Both the position numbers and the translations under genes were made by a program. From Christiangramia sp. OXR-203 (GTDB lineage Bacteria > Bacteroidota > Bacteroidia > Flavobacteriales > Flavobacteriaceae), in the NCBI RefSeq assembly GCF_034372165.1, contig NZ_CP139698.1:2046001-2110000 (forward strand): a stretch of DNA of 64,000 bases, written 5' to 3'. Numbering within the stretch: the first letter of the stretch is position 1; every line of letters begins with the position of its first letter. Of this stretch, positions 10,573 through 59,188 are shown one piece after another. The notes beneath the pieces are model-generated. The model made no database searches, was not told the DNA's origin, and saw nothing but the letters and a program-made list of their open reading frames with translations.

Positions 10573-12675
10573 TTATTTTTTACCGATTTTTCGCTTCAAT
10601 AACTGCGCATTAATAGCCACTATAATTGTACTCAAACTCATAAATACCGCACCAACCGCAGGACCTAAAACAAAGCCTGAAGAATATAATACACCAGCTG
10701 CTAGAGGAATAGCCACGACATTGTATCCCGTAGCCCAAATCAAATTCTGAATCATTTTATTGTAGGTCGCTTTTCCAAATAAAATTAGGTTGGCAATATC
10801 TTGTGGATTACTGTTGACCAGAATAATATCGGCAGTTTCAGCTGCTACATCTGTACCTGAGCCTACTGCAATTCCTACATCGGCTTTTGCGAGCGCGGGC
10901 GCATCATTTACACCATCACCCGTCATAGCTACAAAATCACCTTTGTTCTGTAACTCTTCTACAATTTCAACTTTTTGATGTGGCAATACCTCGGCGTAGT
11001 AACCATCCAATCCAAGTTTTTCACTCACAGCTTTAGCGGTTTTTTCATTATCACCAGTTGCCATTAGAACTTTAATGTTATTCGTTTTAAATATTTTGAT
11101 TGCCTCGGCAGATTCTGGTCTTATTTCATCAGCAAGGGCGATGTAACCGGCCAATTTTCCATCAATTAAAACAAACACTACAGTTTCCGCTGCATCGCTG
11201 TAAGCATCTTCAGGAATAGTAATTTTCTCATCTCTTAGATAGCCTGGACTTACTACCTTAACTTGTTTGCCTTCCACATTTGCCTCTACACCTTTACCAG
11301 TAATAGCATTGAAGTTTTCTGGGCTAGGGATAGTAATATTATCTTCTTTTACTTTTTTGATAATACCAACTGCAATAGGGTGTTCTGAGCTTTGTTCCAA
11401 TGCACTTGAAAGTCTTAAAATTTCCTCTGTTGAATAAGTCTCGTTAACAGACTCAATTCGAGTGACACCAAAATCACCCTTGGTTAGTGTTCCTGTTTTA
11501 TCAAAAAGCAAAGCTGAAATTTTTCTGGACTCTTCAAAAGCTGTTCTATTTCGGATAAGCAATCCATTTTGAGCAGATACAGCGGTAGAAATAGCAACCA
11601 CAAGCGGAATGGCAAGCCCTAATGCGTGTGGACAAGCAATTACCATAACAGTAACCATTCTTTCTAAAGCATAGACAAATGGAAAGCCTAAAATCAGCCA
11701 TACTGCTAATGTTCCAAAACCAATAGCCAAAGCGATATAGGTTAGCCATTTTGCAGCCCTATCTGATAGGTTTTGCATCTTCGATTTGGTTTTTTGCGCT
11801 TCCTCGACCATCTTAATGACCTTGTTTAGATAGCTGTCTTTTCCAGTATGTTCAACTTTTACTTTTAAGGTGCTATTGCCATTTACAGAACCACCAATAA
11901 CCTTATCGTTTTCATCTTTTTTTACAGGTTTGGATTCGCCTGTAAGCATAGATTCATTTAGGTAACTTGAACCGTCTACTATAATCCCATCAGCGGGAAC
12001 TTTTTCACCTGGTTTTACCAAAATCACATCATCTTTTAGTAAATCTTCCAAAGGAATGTCTTCTATGGTGTCACCTTTTACCCTGTGCGCTTCCGCAGGC
12101 ATCATACTTACCAGTAACTGCAAGGCTTTTGATGCACCTAACACACTTTTCATTTCTATCCAATGACCAAGCAACATTATGGCTATAAGTGTTGATAGTT
12201 CCCAGAAAAAGTCTTCACCTCTTAAGCCAAATACAGTAGCTGTACTATAAAAATAAGCTACGGAAATTGCCATAGAAATCAAGGTCATCATTCCTGGTGC
12301 ACCTTTTTTGACTTCAGACCAAAACCCTTTTAAAAATGGCCAACCACCATAAAAATATACAACAGTGGAAAGTGCAAAAAGGATGTATGGATTTCCTGGA
12401 AGTAAAAATTCATAACCAAAAAATTCCTGAATCATTGGTGAGAAGAACAATATAGGGATGGTAAGCACGAGTGTTACCCAAAACCGTTTTCTAAAGTCTG
12501 CAATCATCATTTTATGATGGTCGTGACCCATTTGACCGTGACCCGGATTGTGACCCGAATGGTCCCCACCTTTGTGGTTCATTTTAGAATGGTCTTCTTT
12601 TTTGTGTTTCATCTTCGAATGGTCCATTTTAGAATGGTCCATTTCATCGTGATTGTGGTGTTCGTGATTTTCCAT
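10573..12675 (-). CDS. copB: CopB-type copper/silver P1B ATPase (CPH motif)
   Basis: This 700-residue P-type ATPase lacks an HMA domain but has a His/Met-rich N-terminus (about residues 1-60, repeated HSKMDHSKM and HKGGDHSGHNPGHG). The translocation motif is ACPHALGLAIP (about residue 347), diagnostic of the CopB/P1B-3 subgroup. Also visible are the TGES actuator loop, DKTGT phosphorylation site (about 391) and TGDGVNDAPAL hinge. It should export Cu(I), Ag(I) or Cu(II) from the cytoplasm. It is translationally coupled to the MFS gene at 9334. A CPC-type CopA is separately encoded at 56697. Confidence 0.95.
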   Translation of the reverse strand: MENHEHHNHDEMDHSKMDHSKMKHKKEDHSKMNHKGGDHSGHNPGHGQMGHDHHKMMIADFRKRFWVTLVLTIPILFFSPMIQEFFGYEFLLPGNPYILFALSTVVYFYGGWPFLKGFWSEVKKGAPGMMTLISMAISVAYFYSTATVFGLRGEDFFWELSTLIAIMLLGHWIEMKSVLGASKALQLLVSMMPAEAHRVKGDTIEDIPLEDLLKDDVILVKPGEKVPADGIIVDGSSYLNESMLTGESKPVKKDENDKVIGGSVNGNSTLKVKVEHTGKDSYLNKVIKMVEEAQKTKSKMQNLSDRAAKWLTYIALAIGFGTLAVWLILGFPFVYALERMVTVMVIACPHALGLAIPLVVAISTAVSAQNGLLIRNRTAFEESRKISALLFDKTGTLTKGDFGVTRIESVNETYSTEEILRLSSALEQSSEHPIAVGIIKKVKEDNITIPSPENFNAITGKGVEANVEGKQVKVVSPGYLRDEKITIPEDAYSDAAETVVFVLIDGKLAGYIALADEIRPESAEAIKIFKTNNIKVLMATGDNEKTAKAVSEKLGLDGYYAEVLPHQKVEIVEELQNKGDFVAMTGDGVNDAPALAKADVGIAVGSGTDVAAETADIILVNSNPQDIANLILFGKATYNKMIQNLIWATGYNVVAIPLAAGVLYSSGFVLGPAVGAVFMSLSTIIVAINAQLLKRKIGKK

Positions 12676-27438: not shown

Positions 27439-28038
27439 TTAATTTATTTTTTTGATCTTCCATTTTTTATTGATTCCCTCAATTGCAATAAGGTCTTCAG
27501 AAATAAATTTTGAAGTTATATTAGGAGCCACTTTCAAATACCTCTTTGAAAGTGTAATGTGTATCGGATCTTCATTTAAATACTGACGAATTTCTCCATC
27601 CTTATCAATAATTACTTCGAAATAGTGGTAGTTCACCACGTTCTTCATAAGTTCGTTGCTCCCAAGTTGTTCCTTGACCAACTTCAGTACAATGGCCGAA
27701 CCATTTTTAAAATTAGAAGCGTTCAGGAATTCAGGTGTAATAACTGTTACCCCATCTTTATTTATATATCCGTAGTAGAGAACCCCATCCTTATGATGTG
27801 CAATCAAGCATCTATCGTTTTTGAAAATTGGATAATTGGCGTTATCCGTTTTTGTGAGAACCAAATCATTGCGAAAATCAATCAATAAGCTTCCGTCTTT
27901 GGCAATAAAACCCCATTCGTTTCCTTTTTTAACGGCGGCGATGCCATTGTTAAAAGGTGATATATAATCTAAATTTTCCAAGGTTTGCGCAATTCCCATA
28001 AAAGGAATTATTAAAATCACTATTAATATTTTTTTCAT
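27439..28038 (-). CDS. Exported WG-repeat protein
   Basis: This 199-residue protein has a signal peptide (about residues 1-17) and at least two WG-type repeats: KKGNEWGFIAKDGSLLIDF and LYYGYINKDGVTVITPEF. These repeats build beta-rich binding modules with no known enzymatic activity. It is downstream of the HMA-AraC regulator on the same strand, separated by a structured noncoding region. Confidence 0.75.
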   Translation of the reverse strand: MKKILIVILIIPFMGIAQTLENLDYISPFNNGIAAVKKGNEWGFIAKDGSLLIDFRNDLVLTKTDNANYPIFKNDRCLIAHHKDGVLYYGYINKDGVTVITPEFLNASNFKNGSAIVLKLVKEQLGSNELMKNVVNYHYFEVIIDKDGEIRQYLNEDPIHITLSKRYLKVAPNITSKFISEDLIAIEGINKKWKIKKIN

Positions 28039-28083
28039 TGTTTTATTTTTTTTGGTTAATTCTTACTTTTCATCATTCGAAGG

Positions 28084-28147
28084 GCCTGAACTGGCTTGTG
28101 AGATAATTGAGGGGTTATCAACACAAGCCGTGAGGAGATGTCCAGGC
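28084..28147. repeat. Nested inverted repeats between regulator and WG-repeat gene
   Basis: Three arm pairs nest in order: GCCTG/CAGGC (28084-28088, 28143-28147), GGCTTGTG/CACAAGCC (28093-28100, 28122-28129) and GATAA/TTATC (28102-28106, 28115-28119), with loop TTGAGGGG. There is no T-run on either side, so an ordinary terminator is unlikely; a structured leader or an operator is possible. Confidence 0.6.
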
Positions 28148-28209
28148 TTAAATTGAATGTAAACCTACCTACTTTTAAAGTATTTCATCTTCATAATTTT
28201 CTTTCTTAT

Positions 28210-28827
28210 TTATATGATTTCATCATAGAACCTACGCTTCCAATTTCCTATGTTTTTGTAATCTGTCATACTCATTCCTACGACTTCCTTAAACTGCCTG
28301 GATAAATGATTTACACTGCTATAATCCAGTAGATAGCCTATATCTGAAAAGGTATGTTGCTTAAGTTGGATAAGTTCTTTAACCTTCTCTATCTTCAATT
28401 TGATAAAGTACTTTTCAATGGTTGTTTTTTCATTGGTTGAGAATAGTTTGCTTAATGTCTTGTAATCCTTGTGAAGACTTGATGCTAATAGTTCAGATAT
28501 CTTTACTTTAATATGTAACGGCAACTCTTGCAGTTGTTCAATTAGAATGATCTTCATTCTTTCAACAAGCATCTCTTCTTCTTTTTTTACTATTTCAAAA
28601 CTATTGGCGTGTAGCACCCTTGTTACGTTATCTGTAATGGCAACTTCATTTAGGTTAGGTGCTTCTACCATTAACCTTCCCAACTCTAATGAGAGTACAG
28701 TAATATCTAATTCTTGAAGTTCTTGTTTTATAACTTTGAGGCATCTGCTACAAACCATATTCTTAATCCAAAATTCTTTTCGTGAGCTCATTTTAGTATA
28801 GGTATTGCTATTGGGCATGGAGCTCAA
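28210..28827 (-). CDS. HMA-AraC fusion transcriptional regulator (copy 1)
   Basis: This protein of up to 205 residues has an N-terminal HMA-like metal-binding segment (FWIKNMVCSRCLKVIKQEL) and a C-terminal AraC-type helix-turn-helix pair (VKELIQLKQHTFSDIGYLLD, then VNHLSRQFKEVVGMSMTDY). The two-domain layout suggests direct metal sensing through MxCxxC. An internal ATG at 28791 (MSSRKEFW) fits the lengths of the other two copies (188 residues) better than 28827. Paralogues are at 50641 and 55558. It lies divergent from metal genes at 29.6 kb and upstream of the WG and HMA genes. Confidence 0.85.
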   Translation of the reverse strand: MSSMPNSNTYTKMSSRKEFWIKNMVCSRCLKVIKQELQELDITVLSLELGRLMVEAPNLNEVAITDNVTRVLHANSFEIVKKEEEMLVERMKIILIEQLQELPLHIKVKISELLASSLHKDYKTLSKLFSTNEKTTIEKYFIKLKIEKVKELIQLKQHTFSDIGYLLDYSSVNHLSRQFKEVVGMSMTDYKNIGNWKRRFYDEII

Positions 28828-28970
28828 TAGATCATAAGGTTTTGGCCTTACATGTTTAAATTGATGAAATGTGTTGTGGAATAACGGTTTACAACAATCT
28901 TTAACCAGAAGTGGTTCTTTGATTATAAGATAGAATACAGATTGATACGTTCAATCTACAGGGAAGAAAA

Positions 28971-29393
28971 TCAAATTAAATAAATCTCGTTGAGAACTTG
29001 TAAGTCCTTAGATAGCAAAGGCGGCCTATAGTGTTTGAAAGGGACGATGTTTGCTTCAAGCCCTTCAAACAGATTAAGGTAGGTATAAAAGAAGGTTCTA
29101 AGAAAGAATATATCTTCAGACTCAAGTTGGGTATTAACCTTTTTTATGGTATCATCGCCTGTTTTGACCAAAGTTTGATTGCTGCAGCAGTCTTTTTCTT
29201 GAATAGAAGTGCATTGCTTAGTGGTGGAATCTTTCTCTAGTTCCTTGTCTTGACAGACTTTGGCTTTACCCAAAAGTGCCATATCCACCAATTTATTACA
29301 GCAGAAGTGCATATCTACTGTAAACGAAGAAGTACTAAAAAATATAGTAGCTGCTAAAAAGAAGGCTAATATTTTGGTAAAAAAAGATTTCAC
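28971..29393 (-). CDS. HYC_CC_PP family exported protein (copy 1)
   Basis: This 140-residue protein has a signal peptide (about residues 1-22), MHFCCNKLVD at the HYC position, a KDCCSNQTL motif and a YRPPLLSKDLQVLNE C-terminus. These are the three landmarks of the HYC_CC_PP family of Bacteroidota proteins linked to RND efflux operons. The Cys/His residues suggest periplasmic metal binding. It is transcribed away from the copy at 29673. Confidence 0.85.
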   Translation of the reverse strand: MKSFFTKILAFFLAATIFFSTSSFTVDMHFCCNKLVDMALLGKAKVCQDKELEKDSTTKQCTSIQEKDCCSNQTLVKTGDDTIKKVNTQLESEDIFFLRTFFYTYLNLFEGLEANIVPFKHYRPPLLSKDLQVLNEIYLI

Positions 29394-29522
29394 GTAATAA
29401 ATTTAATAATTTTATATCAAATATTTAAAATATATGTTAAATAATTAGATTTTAGTATTATATTTTAGTTAAGAGTAGATTTTAGTTAACGTTACGAATG
29501 TAAATTAGTTGACTATGAAAAA

Positions 29523-29540
29523 ATATGACTTCCGTCATAT
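29523..29540. promoter_or_regulatory. Inverted repeat in divergent promoter region, candidate operator
   Basis: ATATGAC-TTCC-GTCATAT is a perfect inverted repeat with 7-bp arms and a 4-bp spacer. It lies in the 279-base region between divergent HYC_CC_PP genes, 130 bases from either start. The same region has repeated GATTTTAGTTAA-like sequences at 29446-29492. It may bind a dimeric regulator of the efflux operon; which one is not shown. Confidence 0.45.
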
Positions 29541-29672
29541 AAAATCGATTCTAACTTTATGTTATTTGCAGTAATCTTGATCCAGATGTAAAATAGTCTC
29601 TAGGTTTTTATAAACTAAACTCTTTGTTAAATAAAAGAAATCTTCTAATTTTTTTTTAGCTTTGTATTCTTA

Positions 29673-30089
29673 ATGAAAAAGGTTTTCTTAAAATTATCAT
29701 CATTTTTTATGGCACTTTTAGTGCTGTTTTCAACGTTTTCTTTTACGTTGGCGAGTCACTATTGTGGTGATGTTTTAGTTGATTCTTCATTGTTTGGAAA
29801 AGTAGAAACCTGTGGTATGGAAGTACAAAAAACTTCCACTTCTTTAAATTGTGATATTACCAAGAATAATTGTTGTAGTGATGAACAACTGCTTTTGGAA
29901 GGACAAGACACCTTAAAAATTTCCTTTGAAAAGTTGGATAAAGAACACCAAATATTTGTTGTTTCATTAGTCCAATCTTATTTATATTTATTTGAATATG
30001 AAAACTCAGATAAGAAAACATTTATAAATTATTCCCCACCACCCCTCATAAGAGATGTTCAAGTCTTAGACCAGACTTTCCTCATTTGA
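29673..30089 (+). CDS. HYC_CC_PP family exported protein (copy 2)
   Basis: This 138-residue protein has a signal peptide (about residues 1-26), then SHYCGDVLVDSSLFG, KNNCCSDEQLLL and NYSPPPLIRDVQVLDQ, the canonical HYC, CC and PP landmarks. It is the first gene of the plus-strand RND operon, immediately before cusA. A TAnnTTTG-like box (TAGCTTTG, 29657-29664) ends 9 bases before the ATG, which would leave almost no leader, so it may be fortuitous. The protein is probably a periplasmic metal-binding accessory of the pump. Confidence 0.85.
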   Translation: MKKVFLKLSSFFMALLVLFSTFSFTLASHYCGDVLVDSSLFGKVETCGMEVQKTSTSLNCDITKNNCCSDEQLLLEGQDTLKISFEKLDKEHQIFVVSLVQSYLYLFEYENSDKKTFINYSPPPLIRDVQVLDQTFLI

Positions 30090-30194
30090 TTTTTAAGTAA
30101 ATAACTCTTAAGTCCAATCTTAACTTGTTTGGACTAAACTGCTTATATCTTGTTTCCTCAACAAGTATTGTTATTACTTAAAACTCATTTTTCT

Positions 30195-33100
30195 ATGCTG
30201 AATAAAAGCATCAAATTTCTAATAGAAAATAAATTAGTAGCTGTTTTACTATTAGCTTTGTTCGTCGGTTGGGGCGTTGTAAACGCACCTTTTAATTGGG
30301 AGACCGGTATTTTGCCTACTGACCCTGTAGCTGTGGATGCCATTCCCGATATTGGTGAAAACCAACAAATTGTTTTTACCAAATGGCAAGGGCGCTCGCC
30401 ACAGGATATTGAAGACCAAATTACGTATCCACTTACAACTTCGCTTCTAGGTATTCCAGGCGTGAAAACTATTCGTAGTTCCTCTATGTTTGGGTTTTCC
30501 AGTATCTATATCATTTTTGAAGAAGATGTGGAGTTTTACTGGTCACGTAGTCGCATTCTCGAAAAACTCAATTCGCTTCCTTCCAACTTGCTGCCAGATG
30601 GCGTTAACCCAGCTTTGGGCCCTGATGCCACAGGTTTAGGACAAATATTCTGGTACACCCTAGAAGGTCGTGACAAGGATGGTAATGTAACCGGTGGTTG
30701 GGATTTACAGGAACTGCGTAGTATACAGGATTATTATGTGAAATACGGATTGTCATCAGCAAGTGGTGTTTCCGAAGTAGCGTCTATCGGCGGTTATGTT
30801 CAGGAATATCAAGTAGATGTGGACCCGGAGAAAATGCGCCAATACAATATTGGATTAAGTGCCATTGTCAAAGCCGTTAAGCAGAGCAACCAAGATATTG
30901 GTGCACAAACATTGGAAATCAATCAGGCCGAATATCTGGTTCGTGGTTTGGGCTATGTAAAATCCGTTGCAGATATTGAAAATGCCGTGGTCACTTCAGA
31001 GAATTTTACGTCTATCCGAATAAAAGACATCGCAACTGTTCATTTGGGACCGCAAACTCGTCGTGGTATTTTAGATAAAGAAGGTGCCGAAGTTGTTGGT
31101 GGTGTTGTGGTAGCGCGATATGGCGCCAACCCTATGGAAGTTATCAATAATGTAAAAGAGCAAATCGCTGAACTGTCATCTGGGCTTCCAACAAAAGTTC
31201 TGGCAGATGGCCGCACCTCACAAGTGACCATTGTCCCCTTTTACGACCGTACCCAGCTTATTCAAGAGACCCTACACACGCTTAATGAAGCACTCACGCT
31301 TGAAATCTTAATAACCATTCTGGTCATTATCGTAATGGTGTTCAACCTACGCGCATCCATCTTAATTTCAGGTTTGTTACCCGTTGCAGTATTAATGGTT
31401 TTCATTGCAATGAAACTTTTTGATGTAGATGCAAATATTGTAGCATTGTCAGGGATTGCCATTGCTATAGGTACAATGGTGGATGTGGGCGTTATACTGG
31501 CCGAAAATATGATTCGGCATTTGGAAGATGAAAAATTACGCTTTCGCGAAAGCGGAATCGAGTACACCACAAATGAAATCATCTACAATGCAACTGCTGA
31601 AGTTTCTGGTGCAATTTTAACGGCAGTATTAACAACCATTATCAGTTTTATTCCTGTATTCACTATGATAGGTGCTGAAGGAAAGTTGTTTCGTCCACTC
31701 GCATTTACAAAGACAATGGCGCTCACGGCGTCTTTGGTTATCGCCCTTTTCTTGATACCACCATTTGCCGCATTCCTTTTCAAAAAGAGTACTATTAGGG
31801 AGCACGCTAAATATATTATTAATGCTGTTCTCATCGTCCTTGGTATCACAGCCATCTTCTATGGTTATTGGTTGGGTATTATATTAATTGCCTATGGAAT
31901 CGTTGCAATTTTGAGTGTACGCGATATTATCACGGCAAAAAGAGCCAATCTAATACATATCGTTATTTCTTGTATTGCTATTGTTTTCCTTCTAGCCGAA
32001 TACTGGCGACCACTAGGTTTTGACCGCGGTATTATAATGAACTTGATTTTTGTTGCGATTATCTGTTTCGGATTACTGGGGGCGTTTTCAATTTTCCAAA
32101 AATATTACGACACTATATTACGTTGGGCACTTCAAAACCGATTACTGTTTTTAATAATTCCGACCACAGTGTTGATTTTAGGGGCCATAATAATGCGCAA
32201 CACGGGTAAAGAATTTATGCCATCGCTCAACGAAGGCTCATTCCTGTTAATGCCAACATCCTTGCCACACGCAGGTGTTGAAGAAAACAAGCGTGTGTTA
32301 CAGCAGCTTGATATGGCCGTAGCCAGTATTCCTGAAATCGAAACGGTAGTAGGTAAATCGGGTAGAACAGAATCTGCTCTTGACCCTGCGCCGCTCTCGA
32401 TGTATGAAAATGTGATTCAGTATAAGTCTGAATATATGCGAAACAAGAATGGCGAGAGACAACGCTACCGCGTAAACGATGATGGTTTATTTGTTCTGAA
32501 AAATGATAAATTCATTATTAATCCAAATAATGAAATCGATGATGACGCTAATTATGAGGCCTCGCAACTAAAAACAAATGCAACCCATAACGATTTAATT
32601 GAAGACGGCAGCGGTGAATATTACCGAAACTGGCGGCCAGAAATCGACAGCCCAGACGATATCTGGAATGAGATTGTGAAAGTGACAAAATTTCCAGGGG
32701 TGACTTCTGCACCAAAACTACAACCTATCGAGACAAGGCTCGTAATGCTTCAAACAGGTATGCGTGCGCCTATGGGTATAAAAGTTAAAGGGCCAGACTT
32801 GAAAACAATAGAAGCTTTTGGTCTACAGCTCGAAGACATTTTAAAACAAGCTGAAGGTGTAAAAGAACAAGCTGTCTTTGCAGACCGTATTGTGGGCAAG
32901 CCCTATTTACTAATTGATATAAAACGAGACCAATTGGCACGCTATGGAATTTCCATAATGGATGTTCAGGAAGTACTTCAGGTAGCTGTGGGCGGTATGC
33001 CGCTTACTCAAACGGTGGAAGGTCGTGAGCGGTATGGAGTAAGAGTGCGCTATCCGCGTGAGTTGCGTGCAAACTCAGAAGATTTAAAAGATATTTATGT

Positions 33101-33947
33101 TCCGGTTGAGAAAGGAAGTCCGGTTCCCTTAAGCGAGTTGGCCACCATAAGATACGAACAAGGGCCGCAGGTCATTAAAAGTGAGGACACCTTTTTAATT
33201 GGCTATGTTCTTTTCGATAAGTTGGACGGTTTCGCCGAAGTGGATGTAGTGGAAAATGCCCAAGCGCTCATTCAACAAAAGATTGATAACGGTGATCTAA
33301 TTGTACCAAAAGGAATTAACTATCGCTTTACAGGTACCTACGAAAACCAACTGAGAGCCGAAAAAACTTTAAGCGTGGTTGTGCCATTAGCATTAGCTAT
33401 CATATTTCTAATTCTGTATTTCCAGTTCCGTTCTGTTTCCACCTCGTTGATGGTATTTACAGGAATCGCAGTTGCCTTTGCAGGTGGCTTTATAATGATT
33501 TGGCTTTACGGTCAGGATTGGTTCTTCAATTTCAGCTTTTTTGGTGAGAATATGCGGGATTTGTTCAATATGAAAACCATCAATCTAAGTGTTGCTGTCT
33601 GGGTTGGCTTTATTGCGCTTTTTGGTATCGCAACAGATGATGGTGTAGTTATGGCTACCTACCTCACACAAACTTTTGACAGAGAGAATCCCAATGATAA
33701 AAAAGGAATCCGACTTGCCACATTAGAAGCTGCTGGAAAGCGAATTCGTCCGTGTTTGATGACTACTGTTACCACCGTGCTTGCACTCTTACCTGTACTT
33801 ACTTCTACGGGAAAAGGAAGCGATATTATGATACCTATGGCAATCCCCATTTTCGGTGGGATGATTATAGATATTACATCCTACTTTTTAGTACCAGTAT
33901 TATATAGCTGGAAAAAAGAGTACCAACTTAAACGAGCAAACAAATGA
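30195..33947 (+). CDS. cusA: CusA/CzcA-type heavy-metal efflux RND permease
   Basis: From ATG 30195 (MLNKSIKFLIENKL) the protein is 1250 residues; an in-frame ATG at 30150 adds 15 non-homologous residues. Typical RND segments are PVAVDAIPDIGENQQIVFT, YPLTTSLLGIPGVKTIRSSS, SGIAIAIGTMVDVGVILAEN and FGIATDDGVVMATYL. It is longer than the usual 1040 residues because of an insertion with extra hydrophobic helices (about residues 535-640) and a polar insertion (about 745-840), both common in Bacteroidota CusA. It should drive Cu/Ag export across the envelope by proton antiport. The stop overlaps the tolC gene start by 4 bases. Confidence 0.95.
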   Translation: MLNKSIKFLIENKLVAVLLLALFVGWGVVNAPFNWETGILPTDPVAVDAIPDIGENQQIVFTKWQGRSPQDIEDQITYPLTTSLLGIPGVKTIRSSSMFGFSSIYIIFEEDVEFYWSRSRILEKLNSLPSNLLPDGVNPALGPDATGLGQIFWYTLEGRDKDGNVTGGWDLQELRSIQDYYVKYGLSSASGVSEVASIGGYVQEYQVDVDPEKMRQYNIGLSAIVKAVKQSNQDIGAQTLEINQAEYLVRGLGYVKSVADIENAVVTSENFTSIRIKDIATVHLGPQTRRGILDKEGAEVVGGVVVARYGANPMEVINNVKEQIAELSSGLPTKVLADGRTSQVTIVPFYDRTQLIQETLHTLNEALTLEILITILVIIVMVFNLRASILISGLLPVAVLMVFIAMKLFDVDANIVALSGIAIAIGTMVDVGVILAENMIRHLEDEKLRFRESGIEYTTNEIIYNATAEVSGAILTAVLTTIISFIPVFTMIGAEGKLFRPLAFTKTMALTASLVIALFLIPPFAAFLFKKSTIREHAKYIINAVLIVLGITAIFYGYWLGIILIAYGIVAILSVRDIITAKRANLIHIVISCIAIVFLLAEYWRPLGFDRGIIMNLIFVAIICFGLLGAFSIFQKYYDTILRWALQNRLLFLIIPTTVLILGAIIMRNTGKEFMPSLNEGSFLLMPTSLPHAGVEENKRVLQQLDMAVASIPEIETVVGKSGRTESALDPAPLSMYENVIQYKSEYMRNKNGERQRYRVNDDGLFVLKNDKFIINPNNEIDDDANYEASQLKTNATHNDLIEDGSGEYYRNWRPEIDSPDDIWNEIVKVTKFPGVTSAPKLQPIETRLVMLQTGMRAPMGIKVKGPDLKTIEAFGLQLEDILKQAEGVKEQAVFADRIVGKPYLLIDIKRDQLARYGISIMDVQEVLQVAVGGMPLTQTVEGRERYGVRVRYPRELRANSEDLKDIYVPVEKGSPVPLSELATIRYEQGPQVIKSEDTFLIGYVLFDKLDGFAEVDVVENAQALIQQKIDNGDLIVPKGINYRFTGTYENQLRAEKTLSVVVPLALAIIFLILYFQFRSVSTSLMVFTGIAVAFAGGFIMIWLYGQDWFFNFSFFGENMRDLFNMKTINLSVAVWVGFIALFGIATDDGVVMATYLTQTFDRENPNDKKGIRLATLEAAGKRIRPCLMTTVTTVLALLPVLTSTGKGSDIMIPMAIPIFGGMIIDITSYFLVPVLYSWKKEYQLKRANK
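31539..31554. repeat. 16-bp perfect palindrome, copy 1 (inside cusA)
   Basis: CGCTTTCGCGAAAGCG is a perfect 16-bp palindrome here, encoding part of LRFRESG in an in-frame coding context. The same 16 bases recur at 33985-34000. From memory, this palindrome is over-represented in flavobacterial genomes; its role is unknown. Confidence 0.7.
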
Positions 33948-48585: not shown

Positions 48586-50397
48586 ATGAAAAAGAATTTA
48601 ATATTTATTGGCCTTGCCTTAGTAGTAGGGCTATTGGGAGGATGGCTCATATTTGGAGGGTCAGGAAATGATGAACAGGCGATAAAGGACTTGTCCGATA
48701 TGTCAGATTCGCACGATCATTCAGGTGAAAGTGCTGAGCAGATGTGGACTTGCTCAATGCACCCACAAATTATGCAACCCGAACCTGGCGATTGCCCAAT
48801 CTGCGGAATGGACCTCATTCCAGCTGAGGCTGGAGCAGACGGTCTGTCTGCAGATGAGATTAAGATGACCGAAAATGCAATGGCACTGGCTAACATACAA
48901 ACATCGGTCGTAGGACAAGGTCAGATGGGTAGTGGCACATTAAAACTATCTGGAAAGATAAAGCCCAATGAAGAATCCAACGCTGTGCAGGTCACCTATT
49001 TTGGTGGAAGAATTGAAAACCTCTATGTTAATACTACAGGAGAACGTGTAGGTGCCGGACAGCGTTTGGCAACTATTTATTCACCTGAATTAGTTTCTGC
49101 CCAACAAGAATTACTCACGGCTGCATCGTTGAAGGAATCACAGCCAGCACTCTATAAAGCTGTGAGGAATAAACTAAAGCTTTGGAAACTTTCTGAAAAG
49201 CAAATTAATGCTATAGAGACCGCTGGAAAAGTACAAGAAAATTTCCCTGTTTATGCAACCGTTTCTGGGACAGTAACGCATAAAATGGTAGAAGAAGGTG
49301 ACTATGTAAAACAAGGACAACCCTTGTATAAAATTGCCAACCTCAATACGGTCTGGGCAGAATTTGATGCCTATGAGAATCAGATTGCTTCCTTGAAAGT
49401 TGGTCAAACTATTAAAGTGACTACCAATGCGTATCGCAATGAAGTATTTGATGCAAAAGTTTCATTTATTGACCCTTTATTAAATTCTTCTACACGAACC
49501 GTCGTAGTTAGAGCGGTGCTAAATAATAAAAATGATTTGTTCAAACCAGGAATGTTCGTCGAGGGTAAAATTGAAGGTGCTCAAGAAAGCACTTTAAGTA
49601 AAATAACAGTTCCTGCTACAGCTGTGATGTGGACTGGTGAACGTTCTGTGGTTTATGTTAAAACTAATCCTAACGAAGCTATTTTTGAAATGAGAGAAGT
49701 CTTACTCGGTAATGCCAATGGAGACACCTATACCATAATTGAAGGTCTTCAAAATGGTGATGAAGTGGTAACTAATGGCACGTTTACAGTAGATGCTGCT
49801 GCACAATTACAAGGCAAAAAATCTATGATGAACACAGCTGGTGGCAAAACAATGACCGGTCACGAAGGGCATTTAGGTATGCAAGGAAACAATTCTGGAG
49901 ATAGTAAGGGGAATACTGACCATTCAGAAATGAAAGAAAGGATAGCTGTTTCAAACAAATTTCAAGGCCAGTTAAAACAGGTGTTTGAGGATTATATTCT
50001 TTTGAAAGATGCTCTGGTTAATGATGATGCCAAAAATGCACAGCAAGCGGGAAAACAAATAATACGATCCCTGAAAAATGTAGATATGAAGTTGTTATCC
50101 GATGAAAAAGCACATAACCATTGGATGACAATTCAAAAGGAATTAAATACTTCGGCAAACGCAATTTCAAGTAATACGGATATTTCAAAACAAAGAGGGC
50201 ATTTCAAGCATTTGTCTGCGCATATGATAAGTAGTGTACAGCTCTTTGGGGTCAATGAAAATGTTTATATCCAGTTTTGTCCAATGGCAGACAATAATAA
50301 GGGAGCATACTGGATAAGTTTAGAGGAAGAAGTCCGTAACCCATATTATGGCGAAGCAATGTTAACCTGTGGTGAGGTTAGAGATACGTTAAAATAA
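48586..50397 (+). CDS. cusB: CusB-type periplasmic adaptor with metal-binding and DUF3347 domains
   Basis: This 603-residue protein has an N-terminal membrane anchor, a heavy-metal-binding domain (about residues 53-80, MWTCSMHPQIMQPEPGDCPI), then the barrel-sandwich and lipoyl-type adaptor region (about 115-400, ENLYVNTTGERVGAGQRLAT and TVWAEFDAYENQIASLKVG). It ends in a full DUF3347 domain (about 460-603, QFCPMADNNKGAYWISLEEE then NPYYGEAMLTCGEV). It should bridge CusA and TolC. It is unusual to be encoded 13 kb from them and to carry both metal domains. Confidence 0.92.
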   Translation: MKKNLIFIGLALVVGLLGGWLIFGGSGNDEQAIKDLSDMSDSHDHSGESAEQMWTCSMHPQIMQPEPGDCPICGMDLIPAEAGADGLSADEIKMTENAMALANIQTSVVGQGQMGSGTLKLSGKIKPNEESNAVQVTYFGGRIENLYVNTTGERVGAGQRLATIYSPELVSAQQELLTAASLKESQPALYKAVRNKLKLWKLSEKQINAIETAGKVQENFPVYATVSGTVTHKMVEEGDYVKQGQPLYKIANLNTVWAEFDAYENQIASLKVGQTIKVTTNAYRNEVFDAKVSFIDPLLNSSTRTVVVRAVLNNKNDLFKPGMFVEGKIEGAQESTLSKITVPATAVMWTGERSVVYVKTNPNEAIFEMREVLLGNANGDTYTIIEGLQNGDEVVTNGTFTVDAAAQLQGKKSMMNTAGGKTMTGHEGHLGMQGNNSGDSKGNTDHSEMKERIAVSNKFQGQLKQVFEDYILLKDALVNDDAKNAQQAGKQIIRSLKNVDMKLLSDEKAHNHWMTIQKELNTSANAISSNTDISKQRGHFKHLSAHMISSVQLFGVNENVYIQFCPMADNNKGAYWISLEEEVRNPYYGEAMLTCGEVRDTLK

Positions 50398-50461
50398 TCA
50401 GGGTTAGAGTTAATTGGTAAAAGCGGATTCCTCAGCCTTTAATATTTTAAAGAGGAGAAAG

Positions 50462-50644
50462 ATGATGAGTGAAAGTAGAAGAAATAGAAGAAAAAACAAG
50501 AAAAATACATATAAACAGAAAAATCCGATTACAAAAAAAGATAAGGTTATCGGAATTTCAGCGATGATAGGATTATTTATTGCTGCTGTAATACTAATCA
50601 TATATCTAAATTTAGATTTTATTAGGCATTTTTTCAACCTATGA
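50462..50644 (+). CDS. Small basic single-helix membrane protein
   Basis: This 60-residue protein starts at ATG 50462 after a good ribosome-binding-like AGAGGAGAAAG. The N-terminal half is very basic and Asn/Lys-rich (RRNRRKNKKNTYKQKNP), the C-terminal half a membrane helix (ISAMIGLFIAAVILIIYLN). Its stop overlaps the HMA-AraC gene by 4 bases. No family was recognised. Confidence 0.6.
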   Translation: MMSESRRNRRKNKKNTYKQKNPITKKDKVIGISAMIGLFIAAVILIIYLNLDFIRHFFNL

Positions 50645-51207
50645 ATAATACCATCCACATTAAAAATATGGTCTGTCCGAGATGTATATCCGCAGTTTCC
50701 CAAATTTTGGTAGGATTGAACATTGATTACAAAGCTGTCAAGTTAGGAGAAGTAGAATTGGTATCGATGCTTAACGAATTCGAAAAAAAATCTTTGCAAA
50801 AAAAGCTACAAAATGCAGGATTTAGTTTGATTGACGACCGTAAAAGTCAGCTTATCGAGCAAATGAAGAATTTGGTAATTGAGAAGATACATTATTCTAA
50901 TGAAGAGACCGAATTAAAATGGGCCAATATTATAAGTTACGAGCTGAACTTAGATTATAAATATTTAAGTTCCCTATTCTCATCGGTAGAAAGCATCACG
51001 TTCGAGCAATACATCATCAACCAAAAAATTGAACGTGTAAAAGAACTTATTGTCTATGATGAATTAACCTTGAGTGAGATAGCTTTTCAATTACATTATA
51101 GTAGCGTTGCGTACTTAAGCAATCAATTCAAAAAAGTAACGGGAATGACACCCACGCAGTTCAAGAAATCTGTGACAAAAAACCGAAAATCCTTGGATGA
51201 GATTTAA
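50641..51207 (+). CDS. HMA-AraC fusion transcriptional regulator (copy 2)
   Basis: This 188-residue protein has the HMA-like N-terminus (IHIKNMVCPRCISAVSQILV) with MxCxxC, a middle helix-rich linker, and the C-terminal AraC-type DNA-binding pair (VKELIVYDELTLSEIAFQLH and LSNQFKKVTGMTPTQFKKS). The layout matches 28210 and 55558. It follows the small membrane protein by overlap and precedes the mercury locus, so it may regulate cusB-side genes or the mer genes; the target is unknown. Confidence 0.85.
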   Translation: MNNTIHIKNMVCPRCISAVSQILVGLNIDYKAVKLGEVELVSMLNEFEKKSLQKKLQNAGFSLIDDRKSQLIEQMKNLVIEKIHYSNEETELKWANIISYELNLDYKYLSSLFSSVESITFEQYIINQKIERVKELIVYDELTLSEIAFQLHYSSVAYLSNQFKKVTGMTPTQFKKSVTKNRKSLDEI

Positions 51208-51262
51208 TTAAAGAACATTAAAAAACAAAGGTTGTTTAAAAGTTCAAAGTTACTTGTTGCGT

Positions 51263-51307
51263 TATTATTTAAGTATTTGCTTAAATAATATAATAATGAT
51301 ATATTTG
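51263..51307 (+). promoter_or_regulatory. Inverted-repeat operator overlapping a Bacteroidota promoter, before arsR
   Basis: TATTATTTAAG (51263-51273) and CTTAAATAATA (51280-51290) are perfectly inverted 11-base arms around TATTTG. The TTG in the spacer (51277-51279) serves as -33 element, with TATATTTG (TAnnTTTG consensus) at 51300-51307, 20 bases further on. The arsR ATG is at 51330. An ArsR dimer on the palindrome would cover the -33 box, which fits autorepression released by Hg or another metal. Confidence 0.75.
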
Positions 51308-51329
51308 TGGCCACTTTAAATCAAAAAAG

Positions 51330-51701
51330 ATGAGCTTGGAAATAACCTGTACACGGAACGAAGCAGACAAGAAGCAAATATCGAGATGTAAGGAAACCAT
51401 AGAGAATTCTTCAGGTAGCTTAGAAGCAATAAGCAAAATTTTGTCTCTTGCGGGAAGCGAGGTACGACTGAAAATTCTATTTCTATTGAACATAGAGAAT
51501 GAACTGTGTCCTTGCGATATTGCTGACATTCTTGAAATGAGTGTTCCTGCCGTATCCCAACATATCCGTAAAATGAAGGATGCGGGAATTATTACATCGA
51601 GACGTGAAGGGCAAACATTGTATTATTCGCTGGTAAAGAGTGAGGACAATGTTTTGAATGGAATTTTCAATTCAATTTCAGCAAGAAAGAAAACAGCTTA
51701 G
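51330..51701 (+). CDS. ArsR-family metal-responsive repressor
   Basis: This 123-residue winged-helix protein has LAGSEVRLKILFLLN, then ENELCPCDIADILEMSVPAVSQHIRKM, with the ArsR-type Cys pair (C-P-C) at the start of the recognition region, and the beta wing SRREGQTLYYSL. Metal binding at the Cys pair would release DNA. It heads the mercury locus and has a palindrome in its own promoter. Confidence 0.9.
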   Translation: MSLEITCTRNEADKKQISRCKETIENSSGSLEAISKILSLAGSEVRLKILFLLNIENELCPCDIADILEMSVPAVSQHIRKMKDAGIITSRREGQTLYYSLVKSEDNVLNGIFNSISARKKTA

Positions 51702-51713
51702 AAAGTTTACATT

Positions 51714-52337
51714 ATGGCACCGAATAAAACTTCAAATACCGCGGCCTATACCGGCATTTTTACCGCAGTTGCAGCATCAATATGTTGTATAACCCCTGTC
51801 TTGGCATTAATTGCTGGAACAAGCGGAATTGCATCTACATTCTCTTGGGTCGAGCCATTTAGACCCTATCTTATCGGCTTGACCATTATTGTTTTGGTCT
51901 TTGCCTGGTACCAGAAACTACGACCGAAAACACAGGAAGAAATAGATTGCGCCTGTGAAGATGATGCGAAACCATCGTTTTGGCAATCCAAACGGTTCTT
52001 ATTGATAGTAACACTATTCGCCGCATTGATGCTGGCCTTCCCGTACTATTCCAATCTATTTTATGCACAGCCCGCCAAGGATATCGTCTATGTCTCTCAA
52101 TCCAATATCAAAAAACAGACTTTTGAAGTCGCTGGAATGACCTGTGCAGGTTGTGAGGCACACGTAGAAAGCGAAGTCAATAAATTGGACGGAATTATTT
52201 CTGTCAAAGCCAGCTACGAAAATGCCAACACCATAGTGGAATTTGACAAGACCAAAACCGATTTGCCCGCAATCCGAAAAGCCATAGAGAAAACAGGATA
52301 CAAAGTAGTCGAGAATACCACCAAAGAAAATAAGTAG
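51714..52337 (+). CDS. merTP: MerTP mercuric transport protein (fused)
   Basis: This 207-residue protein joins a MerT-like membrane part (about residues 1-125, three helices, with CCITP at the usual Cys-Cys position) to a C-terminal MerP-like HMA domain with GMTCAGCEAHVESEVNKL (about 140-200). It should take up Hg(II) at the periplasmic face and deliver it inside. Bacteroidota commonly fuse MerT and MerP. Its stop is immediately followed by the flavoenzyme's ATG. Confidence 0.88.
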   Translation: MAPNKTSNTAAYTGIFTAVAASICCITPVLALIAGTSGIASTFSWVEPFRPYLIGLTIIVLVFAWYQKLRPKTQEEIDCACEDDAKPSFWQSKRFLLIVTLFAALMLAFPYYSNLFYAQPAKDIVYVSQSNIKKQTFEVAGMTCAGCEAHVESEVNKLDGIISVKASYENANTIVEFDKTKTDLPAIRKAIEKTGYKVVENTTKENK

Positions 52338-53684: not shown

Positions 53685-53693
53685 CTATTATTT

Positions 53694-53918
53694 ATGGAAA
53701 CTACAATATTAAAATCTACGATCACCTGCCCTGAATGCGGCCACAAAACAGAAGAAGAAATGCCGACGAACGCTTGTCAATTCTTTTACGAATGCGAGAA
53801 TTGCAAAGAAGTATTAAGACCAAACGAGGGAGATTGTTGCGTATTCTGTTCTTACGGTACTGTGGCCTGCCCACCAATTCAAGAAAATAAAAGATGTAAT
53901 AATTCAAGTTGTTGCTAA
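53694..53918 (+). CDS. GDCCVxC-domain zinc-ribbon-like protein
   Basis: This 74-residue protein has a CPECGHK zinc-knuckle, a second CENCKEVLRP pair and the motif GDCCVFCSYG. Homologues may carry selenocysteine in this motif; here TGT codes Cys. The C-terminus ends NNSSCC. It is found beside mer-type genes and could bind Hg or other soft metals. Confidence 0.85.
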   Translation: METTILKSTITCPECGHKTEEEMPTNACQFFYECENCKEVLRPNEGDCCVFCSYGTVACPPIQENKRCNNSSCC

Positions 53919-53937
53919 ACATTATAATGGACAAATT

Positions 53938-54324: not shown

Positions 54325-54438
54325 AAAAAGTTTGGTGATCCCCTACCTCACGTTCTCATCTTTGTTCCATTATTAATTTGAACTTAAAATAAGATGAATT
54401 GTGCAACAATCACGAATTCATTGAAAAAAAAGAACATT

Positions 54439-54711: not shown

Positions 54712-54713
54712 GT

Positions 54714-55328: not shown

Positions 55329-55407
55329 ACACGTTCCCATTGTGATGACAAAGACATAAATCGAGAACAACTTATTCCAATTTGTTGGTAATAATTCGTG
55401 AAGAGCA

Positions 55408-55440
55408 AATTCTACAAATCATTCAGCATATTACGTAACA
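55408..55440. promoter_or_regulatory. 33-bp direct repeat, copy 1, upstream of HMA-AraC copy 3
   Basis: A 33-base segment here is identical to 56612-56644, starting AATTCTACAAATCATTCAG and including TATTACGTAAC. Similarity continues with gaps for about 40 bases to an ATTTGCATTATA-like stretch. The two sites precede the HMA-AraC gene at 55558 and the CopA gene at 56697. It is most simply a shared regulatory site, perhaps for the adjacent HMA-AraC protein. Confidence 0.6.
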
Positions 55441-55557
55441 CATTAAATTCTTTTAATCCTGATATTTGCATTATAAAAAATTAATATCAAAGTGTAGCCA
55501 TCAACATATTGGATACTATCGTCAAAACTTCCTAATAAGGGTATTTTATAAGCTCCT

Positions 55558-56124
55558 ATGATTAAAGAAATTTTTATACGCAATATGGTCTGTGACAGGT
55601 GCATCAAAGTGCTTAGAACAGAATTTAAAAACGAGGATATTGACTTAATCGAAATCGAATTGGGTCGTATTAAAGTGGGAATTAAAAATGAATCTCAATT
55701 TGAACGTATAATAGCTATCTTGGAAGATGATGGCTTTTCAATAATTAAATCCCCCAAGAAAAAATTAGTAGAAAAGGTAAAGATTGAACTGATTCACATA
55801 TTGGAACAAGTGCCATTCGGACTTGAAGAAAATCTATCAAGTTTCCTCTCAAAAAAATTAAAAAAAGAATATTCGAAAATCAGTAAAACATTCTCTTTCA
55901 TTGAAGAGGTAACTATCGAAAAATATTTTATCAAGCTAAAAATAGAGAAAGTCAAAGAACTCATTCAGTCTCAAGAATATAATTTCACGCAAATAAGCCA
56001 AATGCTCGATTATAAACACTTAAACCATTTAAGCAAACAGTTTAAAAATGAAACAGGTATGAGCTTAACGGACTATAAGTTAAATCGAAAGGGAGGTAGA
56101 AAATCACTGGACAAAATTATATAG
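55558..56124 (+). CDS. HMA-AraC fusion transcriptional regulator (copy 3)
   Basis: This 188-residue protein has an HMA-like N-terminus (IFIRNMVCDRCIKVLRTEF) and a C-terminal AraC-type DNA-binding region (VKELIQSQEYNFTQISQMLD, LNHLSKQFKNETGMSLTDY). It is most like the copy at 28210. A 33-base repeat upstream also occurs before the copper ATPase, making self- and CopA regulation likely. Confidence 0.85.
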   Translation: MIKEIFIRNMVCDRCIKVLRTEFKNEDIDLIEIELGRIKVGIKNESQFERIIAILEDDGFSIIKSPKKKLVEKVKIELIHILEQVPFGLEENLSSFLSKKLKKEYSKISKTFSFIEEVTIEKYFIKLKIEKVKELIQSQEYNFTQISQMLDYKHLNHLSKQFKNETGMSLTDYKLNRKGGRKSLDKII

Positions 56125-56203
56125 ATAATAACCAATATTATAACATACAAATTATCTGTCAAAATCTAAATTTGAGGAATTAATAACTAAAAAATTATAA
56201 AAT

Positions 56204-56524
56204 ATGAAACATTCAAGGTTAATTGATGCACTAAATAATTGTGCTGCCCACTGTAATTATTGCGCAGATGCCTGTCTTGACGAAGGCGACATTAAAATGA
56301 TGGTTGATTGTATTAGGACCGATAGGACCTGTGCTGAAATCTGTAGCGCCACGGCAAATTTACTTGCTTCAAATTATTCCGATGTAAGGGGTATGGTAGA
56401 GCAATGCCGTGATATCTGTAAAAAATGTGCAGATGTATGTGAAAAACACGACCATAAACATTGTCAAGAATGTGCAGATGCCTGCAGAAAATGTGCTGAA
56501 GCTTGTGAGGATTTCTTAAGCTAA
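56204..56524 (+). CDS. Four-helix-bundle copper-binding (Csp-like) protein
   Basis: This 106-residue protein is Cys-rich in helical spacing: NNCAAHCNYCADACLD, DRTCAEICSATANLL, EQCRDICKKCADVCEKH and CQECADACRKCAEACEDF. This fits the Csp copper-storage fold, in which Cys residues line the bundle core and hold many Cu(I) ions. No signal peptide is evident, so it is probably cytosolic, like Csp3. It lies between a metal regulator and CopA. Confidence 0.88.
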   Translation: MKHSRLIDALNNCAAHCNYCADACLDEGDIKMMVDCIRTDRTCAEICSATANLLASNYSDVRGMVEQCRDICKKCADVCEKHDHKHCQECADACRKCAEACEDFLS

Positions 56525-56590: not shown

Positions 56591-56611
56591 TCGTTATAGG
56601 TGATATGGGAG

Positions 56612-56644
56612 AATTCTACAAATCATTCAGCATATTACGTAACA
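56612..56644. promoter_or_regulatory. 33-bp direct repeat, copy 2, upstream of copA
   Basis: This is the exact second copy of the segment at 55408-55440; it lies 53 bases before the CopA start at 56697. Downstream similarity continues to a GAAATTTGTATTG stretch that may serve as a promoter. The arrangement fits joint control of copA and the HMA-AraC regulator gene. Confidence 0.6.
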
Positions 56645-56696
56645 TATTAAAGCCTATTAATTCCGAAATTTGTATTGTATAAATTAGAATAGGTTT

Positions 56697-58955
56697 ATGG
56701 AAACAATCAACATATTTGAAACCGAAAAAAAGAATCATAAAAAGGGAATAAAAAAATCCTTTCCAGTAACAGGTATGACCTGTGCGGCCTGTGCATCCAG
56801 TGTTGAATCTATACTCTCACATACCGAAGGTGTGAACAAGGCCGAGGTTAACTTTGCCAGCAGTTCGGTATTGGTGGATTACGACGAAGCCACTACCGAA
56901 GAACAATTGCAAAACGCTTTAAGACAGGTCGGTTACGATATTATAATTGATGCCGCAGACCCTTCGGAAGTACAGCAAGAACTTCAGCAAAAGCATTATC
57001 AGGACATAAAAAACCGAACCATCTGGTCGGCGATACTTACGCTACCCATTTTTGTGTTGGGAATGTTCTATATGCAATGGGAACCAGGCAAATGGATTTC
57101 ATTGGTATTGGCCTTTCCAATTCTTTTTTGGTTTGGGCGCAGTTTTTTCATCAATGCCTTCAAGCAGGCCAAACACGGTAAAGCAAATATGGATACCTTG
57201 GTGGCGTTGAGTACCGGAATCGCCTTCCTCTTTAGTGTATTCAATACCTTTTTTCCTGAATTTTGGTTAAGTCGTGGCATCGAGCCTCACGTATATTACG
57301 AAGCGGCTACCGTGATTATCACCTTTATTTCCTTGGGGAAACTATTGGAAGAAAAGGCAAAATCAAATACATCTTCAGCCATTAAAAAACTAATGGGGCT
57401 TCAGCCTAAAACCCTTAAAATTATTGAGAATGGGGAAGAGAGGGAAATCCCTATTTCATCCGTACAGGTGGGTCAGACCATTTTGGTGCGTCCCGGAGAA
57501 AAGATTCCGGTGGATGGCGAAGTTTCCAAGGGAAGCTCGTATGTAGATGAAAGTATGATTACGGGAGAACCTGTTCCAGTTCAGAAATCCCAAGGGGAAA
57601 AGGTATTCGCCGGTACGGTTAATCAGAAAGGAAGCTTTCAATTTACCGCTGAAAAAGTTGGTGGAGAAACCTTGCTTTCCCAAATTATTAAAATGGTTCA
57701 GCAAGCGCAAGGGAGTAAGGCACCGGTTCAAAAACTGGTCGATAAGATTGCCGGTATCTTCGTTCCCGTGGTATTGGGTATTTCCTTTGTAACCTTCATC
57801 GTCTGGATGTCTATAGGTGGCGACAATGGCTTTTCACAAGCCTTGTTGACCTCTGTAGCCGTGTTGATTATTGCTTGTCCCTGTGCCTTGGGCTTGGCAA
57901 CGCCTACCGCCATAATGGTAGGTATCGGCAAGGGAGCAGAAAACAATATTTTGATAAAAGATGCCGAAAGTTTAGAACTTGGCCATAAAGTGAATGCAGT
58001 AATCCTTGATAAAACGGGGACGATTACAGAAGGAAAACCATTGGTAACCAACATACTTTGGAAGGACAAGCTTGAAAATCAGAACGATTACAAGAAAATT
58101 CTCTTGTCTATCGAAGCACAATCAGAACATCCCTTGGCAGAAGCCGTCGTCAATCATTTAAAAGAGGAAAATATTGTACAAGCAGAAATTATTTCCTTCG
58201 AAAGTATCACAGGAAAAGGCGTAAAGGCCCAATCAGAGAAAGGTTCAAAATATTATGTGGGCAACCATAAACTTATGGTTGAAAAGAATATTCAAATCGA
58301 CGCTTCTTTGATACAAACAGCAGAAAGTCTGGAAGAGAAAGCAAAAACAGTCATATTTTTTAGTAACGAACATCAAGTTCTTGCGATACTTGCCATTGCG
58401 GACAAGATTAAAGAAACTTCAAAAAAAGCCATAGCTACGCTTCAAGAAAGAGGCATCGAGGTCTATATGCTCACGGGAGATAACAATAAAACGGCTTCTG
58501 CCGTGGCAAATCAAGTAGGGATTTCAAATTACCAGGGCGAAGTAATGCCTTCGGACAAAGCGGCTTTTGTCGAAAAATTACAGGCGGACGGAAAAATAGT
58601 CGCAATGGTTGGCGATGGTATCAACGATTCGCACGCTTTGGCGCAAGCCAATGTAAGTATTGCAATGGGTAAAGGTTCGGACATAGCAATGGATGTCGCA
58701 AAAATGACCTTGATAACGTCAGATTTGCAATCCATCCCAAAAGCATTGGAACTGTCAAAAAGAACCGTGTTGGGCATACGTCAAAACTTATTTTGGGCAT
58801 TCATTTATAACATCATCGGTATTCCAATTGCAGCGGGAATTCTGTATCCCGTAAACGGTTTTTTATTGGACCCGATGATTGCAGGCGCAGCAATGGCATT
58901 CAGTAGTGTATCTGTTGTTGCAAATAGCTTAAGACTTAAACGAGTAAAACTTTAA
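56697..58955 (+). CDS. copA: CopA-type Cu(I) P1B ATPase with one HMA domain
   Basis: This 752-residue protein has one N-terminal HMA domain (about residues 18-85, [18 protein letters not shown]), a metal site [13 protein letters not shown] in TM6 (about 390), the TGEP actuator loop, [11 protein letters not shown] (about 437), SEHPLAEAV and [12 protein letters not shown]. This is the standard cytoplasmic Cu(I) exporter architecture. The hinge reads DSHAL where DAPAL is usual. It is followed by a small HMA chaperone gene. Confidence 0.95.
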
Positions 58956-58975: not shown

Positions 58976-59188
58976 ATGAAAACTTTAAAATTTAAAACAA
59001 ATATCAATTGTGGTGGGTGTGTATCGAAAGTAACCCCTTTTTTAAACAAACAAGAAGGTGTAGAAAGTTGGGAAGTAGATACTGCCAATCCTAATAAAAT
59101 CTTAACCATTGAAAGCGATGGTGCAACTAAAGAAGACGTAACATCTACTTTGCAAAAAGTAGGATTTAAAGCGGAACCTGTAGATTAA
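58976..59188 (+). CDS. HMA-domain metallochaperone
   Basis: This 70-residue single HMA domain has NINCGGCVSKVTPFLNKQEG and a beta-alpha fold like CopZ. It is encoded 20 bases after copA and most likely carries copper to it. Confidence 0.85.
   Translation: MKTLKFKTNINCGGCVSKVTPFLNKQEGVESWEVDTANPNKILTIESDGATKEDVTSTLQKVGFKAEPVD

Follow-up and report, generated by a model that had tools for sequence, protein, structure and literature searches.

The family of regulators described in this study, in which an HMA-like N-terminal domain is joined to an AraC-type DNA-binding domain (HMA-AraC), on balance probably consists of one-component copper-responsive transcription activators of Bacteroidota. We analyzed a stretch of 64,000 nt (hereafter, the window) of Christiangramia sp. 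OXR-203 (GCF_034372165.1, NZ_CP139698.1, positions 2,046,001-2,110,000 of the forward strand) that carries three copies of the regulator. In the mechanism that we propose, the N-terminal 64 residues would adopt a copper-chaperone (HMA) fold, and the CxRC motif would take Cu(I), whether directly or by transfer from a CopZ-like chaperone. The metal would let two subunits sit on a direct repeat with a 21-bp period, probably through an HMA-HMA contact, and the bound dimer, positioned across the -33 region at 19-20 bp upstream of the -7 box, would recruit RNA polymerase. The regulator would activate the genes of CopA, small HMA chaperones, Csp3, and a multicopper oxidase and, in part, its own gene. 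The fold, the motif conservation, the gene linkage, the operator, and the promoter spacing were computed; the Cu(I) ligand, the dimerization, the binding of the protein to the operator, and the activation are what we infer.

Regulator copies in the genome

The original prediction had located three open reading frames of fewer than 210 residues at 28210, 50641, and 55558, and all three were present. REG1 (28210..28827, minus strand, 205 aa) belongs to an HYC_CC_PP-linked clade; its reading frame starts with TTG, and an alternative ATG lies 3 codons further in. REG2 (50641..51207, plus strand, 188 aa) follows the gene of a CusB-type efflux subunit (48586..50397, plus strand, Pfam), and REG3 (55558..56124, plus strand, 188 aa) is the protein for which an AlphaFold model was built. 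The three proteins can be aligned over their entire length, with REG2 and REG3 showing 38% and 46% identity, respectively, to REG1, and the signature NMVCxRC is invariant across them. The count of three copies held for the window and understated the family: a fourth copy lies outside the window (G000:C1:2000684-2001250), bringing the genome total to four, and 142 of 296 Bacteroidota genomes carried the family when matches with E <= 1e-20 were counted and at most 11 candidates were scored per genome.

In all three copies, HTH_18 passed the Pfam cut-off, and membership in the AraC-type double helix-turn-helix group (PF12833/PF00165) was found above the curated cut-off. Pfam returned no match of the three proteins to the CsoR family (PF02583, Trns_repr_metal), and the CueR model TIGR02044 was not among the NCBIfam matches listed for them (for copy 2, the best 25 of 27). 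As side observations, the GC skew changes from negative to positive at approximately 28000-30000, where the gene direction flips, and a small basic reading frame (50414-50644) shares its last 4 bases with the start of REG2.

A candidate direct-repeat operator and its promoter geometry

The same 72 bp, 86% identical, precede both REG3 and CopA in the window, and the 27-bp core of this box, with up to 3 mismatches, was found genome-wide only at these two sites. They hold candidate operator A, a 34-bp direct repeat upstream of REG3 (55407..55440, plus strand), and candidate operator B upstream of CopA (56611..56644, plus strand). In a de novo motif search of 128 regulator-linked intergenic stretches, taken from 56 phylum-spread loci and the window, the top motif at each of the four widths was this box, in whole or in part; at width 38, the log-likelihood gain was 519 for the real stretches (40 starting points) and 130 for the shuffled stretches (15 starting points). 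The candidate consensus is AAATttTatAAAtctTttccAaAATTnTGTAAca, a direct repeat of 34 bp with a period of 21 bp. Self-identity across 33 sites reached 0.67 at lag 21 versus 0.36 expected, and the next-best lag, 9, lay 0.08 above expectation. An inverted-repeat operator was rejected because its best self-match was 0.53 over 13 pairs, compared with the 0.67 of the direct repeat.

The motif was then subjected to a 4-fold test at width 34, in which regulators at least 65% identical were kept in one fold; 56 loci were covered, since 4 of the 60 phylum-spread loci gave no stretch. The results revealed that 42 of the 56 held-out loci scored above each of 20 control loci and 14 did not. At 34 of the 56 loci, the best site of the whole locus lay in an intergenic stretch no more than 700 bp from the regulator; at 11, it lay inside a gene. 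A position weight matrix (PWM) trained on other genomes, with this genome excluded, ranked A (17.4) and B (16.5) as the best and second-best sites of the window, followed by a site of 8.5 within a gene; the highest score among 20 Markov control windows was 14.7. At the locus of the fourth copy, the PWM identified a site of 13.7 before the first gene of the fourth-copy operon.

Model R1, a 62-position profile made from 33 sites, none of them from this genome, gave a similar picture. When 150 of 4041 first-look candidates in the 3.4-Mb genome were scored, the top three were the promoters of CopA (E 2.4e-4), REG3 (3.5e-4), and the fourth-copy operon (0.013), with the remaining matches starting at E 0.29. 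Across 40 genomes of the order, 30 best-per-genome matches were fetched and 10 were not, one of these 10 genomes having no match. Among matches with E <= 1.25e-3, a regulator lay within 1.5 kb in 10 of 13, one lay 4.4 kb away (G029), and two matches had no regulator in reach; none of the 17 weaker matches had a regulator within 1.5 kb. Three of these ten R1-positive genomes had given training sites and seven had not, some of the seven being near kin of the training genomes.

The 34-bp motif had been learned without the promoter, and we scanned intergenic sites scoring at least 9 for TANNTTTG, which we take to be the Bacteroidota -7 box, with one mismatch allowed. Of 63 such sites, some of them from related genomes, 48 have the box starting 19 or 20 bp downstream, and no other offset is shared by more than 4; the reversed box occurred 0 times at offsets 19-20 and up to 8 times at 22-23. 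In the window, -7-like boxes follow operators A (GATATTTG, 55461..55468, plus strand) and B (GAAATTTG, 56665..56672, plus strand) by 20 bp. Given the textbook -33/-7 spacing of Bacteroidota promoters, the predicted operator covers the -33 region while the -7 box stays free, which is the layout of a class-II activator.

The same sensor and operator could also serve a repressor whose apo-protein covers the -33 element until Cu(I) releases it, as with CsoR or CopY. Such a protein would suit an operator that ends where the -33 element would lie and would suit a site before REG3 itself; we nevertheless regard repression as rather unlikely because the rigid distance of 19-20 bp to the -7 box and the direct-repeat layout are those of AraC-type class-II activators, and because a repressor at this operator would leave the -7 box uncovered.

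Two weaker candidate operators overlap the stop codons of regulator genes. Site C (56114..56147, plus strand, PWM 4.7) lies across the stop codon of REG3, ahead of the Csp3-like gene, and was matched by model R1 only with E 1.9; a -7 box, TAAATTTG, lies 19 bp after it (56167..56174, plus strand). Site D (28187..28220, minus strand, PWM 5.2) overlaps the REG1 stop codon before the gene at 27439-28038 and was not found by model R1; a -7-like box, TAGGTTTA, again lies 19 bp after it (28160..28167, minus strand). What argues for both is their position, which is the same in relatives. Among 80 close relatives, 59 have their best 3'-end site (score at least 3) beginning 8 nt ahead of the stop codon; of the 60 phylum-spread members, 5 share this position, and in 8 the site begins at the second base of the stop codon. 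Of 82 genes from the close relatives and the window, 65 have a -7-like box 19 bp downstream of the stop-overlapping position. Because these genes are related and the first half-site is coding, the stop-overlapping sites make a weaker case than A and B. REG1 and REG3 follow this pattern with sites D and C, respectively; REG2 does not.

An operator for REG1 was also sought between two divergent HYC_CC_PP genes, one upstream of REG1 (28971..29393, minus strand, NCBIfam) and the other before CusA (29673..30089, plus strand, NCBIfam). This candidate was discarded because the alignment of 23 relatives revealed a palindrome there instead, which we take to be Crp/Fnr-like. The palindrome, ATATGActtccgTCATAT, is perfect at 29523-29540 and largely kept in the 23 aligned relatives; on its own it may be a chance occurrence, 0.41 matches being expected at one mismatch.

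Neither the PWM nor model R1 identified an operator near REG2 in this genome. In the related locus L048, a REG2 relative (80% identical) is followed after approximately 20 bp by an operator and then by CopA, and, compared with L048, 5.4 kb of the window (51209-56611) part REG2 from the CopA operator. This segment contains genes for ArsR, MerTP, MerTP-like proteins, a pyridine-nucleotide oxidoreductase, a CsoR-type protein, REG3, and Csp3. The comparison with L048 suggests that an insert of 5.4 kb now separates REG2 from what would be its site. The 72-bp promoter is present on both sides of the REG3-Csp3 part of the segment.

The N-terminal domain, the neighboring genes, and the predicted metal

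PF00403 (HMA) remained below its gathering cut-off in REG1 (12.9 vs 24.8 bits) and was unlisted for REG2 and REG3; the first half of the proteins was therefore analyzed by a PDB profile search and a structure model. A profile of REG1-3 matched copper chaperones and ATPase metal-binding domains of the PDB over profile positions 3-66, and its best four matches had E values of 1.6e-4 to 1.4e-3. In the AlphaFold model of REG3 (49 alignment rows, mean pLDDT 87.4), residues 1-63 form the order strand-helix-strand-strand-helix-strand; by model and conservation, this is an HMA-type beta-alpha-beta-beta-alpha-beta fold with MxCxxC in the first loop. Residues 1-64 superposed on CsoZ, CopZ, ATP7B, and Atx1 (Z 8.3-9.6, spanning 59-64 residues, rmsd 1.3-2.1), and the model from residue 64-65 onward superposed on MarA/AraC domains with Z up to 14.4. 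AcuB, which is not a copper chaperone, superposed on residues 1-65 with Z 8.7, and Foldseek matches between the model and HMA chains were weak (E 0.09 or worse). The fold alone is therefore no proof of metal binding, and the argument for HMA rests on the CxxC motif and the sequence profile. The predicted joining of the two domains was thus borne out for the AraC half, and for the HMA half by the PDB profile and the AlphaFold model, and failed for the latter at the Pfam threshold.

Among 153 unique members drawn from 184 full-length reading frames in the fetched loci, Met10 was conserved in 152, Cys12 in 151, Arg14 in 150, and Cys15 in 153. Arginine precedes the second cysteine in 132 of the 135 regulator genes that fitted the search expression (150 genes examined) and in none of the 38 small HMA proteins from these loci, where the residue is Gly, His, or Ser. 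Near-invariance in the regulators and absence from the small proteins indicate that this is not a standard chaperone site. The regulator profile also matched a reading frame of another locus (L074, 10736-12556) that runs off the locus and has three tandem HMA domains, each with GMTCNGC.

A non-standard site of this kind would agree with CxRC being a thiol redox switch or a structural feature in a regulator that senses copper-caused oxidative or thiol stress. We consider this explanation unlikely, because the entire HMA fold is kept in the model and the frequent neighbors are genes for copper export and storage.

The neighboring genes were analyzed in 161 loci, of which the reading frames were called with a simple script and then clustered; the regulator loci came from the top of the match list and are a non-random pick. 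A core metal gene was defined as CusA, a CPx ATPase, CusB, or an HMA gene, either small or belonging to cluster c38 (243 residues), within 5 kb. Such a gene was present for 73 of the 80 close relatives, for 50 of the 60 phylum-spread members, and for both of the remaining window copies (the 28210 copy, REG1, being counted under L015); of 20 control loci taken from these genomes, one had it. Of the 60 phylum-spread members, 40 have a CPx ATPase gene no more than 5 kb away, and 25 have it downstream on the same strand, 15 directly and 10 after one small HMA gene. YNxxxxP and MxxSS are the Cu(I)-type motifs of CPx ATPases, and both occurred in 41 of the 53 unique CPx ATPases near any member. On the basis of these neighbors, copper is the likely metal of the HMA-AraC regulators.

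The three window copies have metal genes nearby (HYC_CC_PP, small HMA genes, CusB, Csp3, and CopA), as had been predicted. REG3 is followed by the gene of a Csp3-like cytosolic copper storage protein (DUF326; 56204..56524, plus strand; Pfam, PDB match E 8e-18) and then by CopA (56697..58955, plus strand), a Cu(I)-type P-type ATPase with one HMA domain by Pfam and with YNxxxxP and MxxSS in its translation; both are predicted targets. A small HMA protein is encoded after CopA (58976..59188, plus strand, Pfam). The REG1 locus carries a gene of cluster c2 (30150..33947, plus strand), whose product we take from its sequence to be a CusA-type RND pump. CsoR-type and ArsR-type genes occur in the same locus as REG2 and REG3 and could be doing or sharing the sensing. 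A second P-type ATPase is encoded at 10573-12675 and has no HMA domain by Pfam. The earlier idea of a metal-sensing AraC-type regulator gained strength from the phylum-wide linkage to Cu(I)-type efflux, the near-invariant CxxC, and the predicted operator at the CopA promoter.

It is improbable that Ag, Hg, Zn, or Cd, rather than copper, is the soft metal sensed by some or all copies. Hg(II) is hinted at only by the insert with MerTP genes next to copies 2 and 3, and against a metal other than copper stand the predominance of both Cu(I) motifs among the nearby CPx ATPases, the Csp3 neighbor, and the insert-free relative L048, with its order of REG2, operator, and CopA.

A loose IUPAC form of the operator, AATYnTRYAA-N11-AWWnnTRYAA, was tried as a regulon finder and abandoned because it lacks specificity. 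Genomes of genus group g2 (possibly Flavobacterium; e.g., G021, G206, and G222) each contained 2-27 copies of this repeat and 0-3 of the reversed form, and the repeat was also found in genomes without the HMA-AraC family; the half-sites are therefore probably shared with other AraC-type regulators. The repeat is perhaps a general AraC-type half-site of Bacteroidota. That the operator belongs to another such regulator, with an indirect linkage to HMA-AraC, would fit the family-free genomes but is very improbable, because the strict model placed its best site beside the regulator in 10 of the 13 strong cases, seven of them from non-training genomes.

Distribution and relation to known systems

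Matches to the HMA-AraC family were present in 9 of 72,556 plasmid records, the genera of which presumably all belong to Bacteroidota; eight of these relatives were annotated as AraC-family regulators and one as a response regulator. In a quick tree, in which 52 of 139 inner branches were unresolved, REG1 (via its identical twin L015) fell in a clade adjoining HYC_CC_PP genes, and REG3 and the fourth copy fell in a clade adjoining CusA and multicopper oxidase genes. REG2 grouped with L048 and L126; support for this group, which includes most of the CopA-linked members, was weak.

A census of 99 Bacteroidota genomes identified the CsoR family in 33 and the HMA-AraC family in 51; CueR exceeded its cut-off in none, this cut-off being so strict that only 1 of 14 control genomes passed, and 13 of the 99 had a MerR-type match above 100 bits. 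Both CsoR and HMA-AraC occurred in 6 genomes, CsoR only in 27, HMA-AraC only in 45, and neither in 21 (p = 4e-6). We do not read this complementarity as replacement of CsoR by HMA-AraC, because one family of genomes (HMA-AraC in 0 of 21, CsoR in 21 of 21) drives the p value, which rises to 0.32 once that family is removed.

According to a dedicated 2024 study of copper handling in Bizionia argentinensis, the MerR- and CopY-type proteins lack the known copper sites, and two ArsR-family proteins were kept as possible cytoplasmic regulators; the word AraC is absent from the study (PMC11213822). Bizionia argentinensis carries an HMA-AraC member (L086), and the gene after it belongs to a cluster that is represented in the window by a multicopper oxidase. 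AraC-type and HMA domains are each known, and we found their fusion as a metal sensor undescribed in the literature searched, in which subscription journals lay mostly outside the coverage: no HMA-AraC or copper-sensing AraC regulator appeared in the titles or the beginnings of abstracts among the matches listed. We suggest, tentatively and at somewhat below even odds, that the family is an undescribed class of copper sensor in much of Bacteroidota, in which a metal-bridged pair of HMA domains replaces the sugar-binding dimerization domain and the operator often lies in the end of the regulator gene. A gene with the operator within its own end would contain the switch for the downstream copper gene.

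If true, the HMA-AraC family would fill the copper-sensor gap for many Bacteroidota, extend the metal-sensor families by an AraC-type branch, and supply sequences for copper biosensors. The geometry of operator and promoter makes the HMA-AraC reading directly testable in laboratory strains.

The DNA-binding domain is similar in sequence and fold to that of the AraC/XylS activators (AraC, MarA, and Rns; PF12833), with which the family shares a direct-repeat operator of 21-bp period adjoining the core promoter; this repeat resembles araI. In contrast to these activators, HMA-AraC has no cupin or other organic-ligand domain and carries a 64-residue HMA fold in that place. Residues 1-64 share their fold and the place of MxCxxC with CopZ, CsoZ, Atx1, and ATPase metal-binding domains (PF00403), whereas HMA-AraC lies below the Pfam cut-off, bears the NMVCxRC signature, and is fused to a DNA-binding domain. 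NimR, the nickel-responsive regulator of E. coli, is likewise an AraC-type regulator of metal efflux and is not known to carry an HMA domain. The cytosolic copper sensors CueR, CsoR, and CopY use DNA-binding folds other than the AraC type, and the predicted role of HMA-AraC, the control of CopA and chaperone genes, is the same as theirs.
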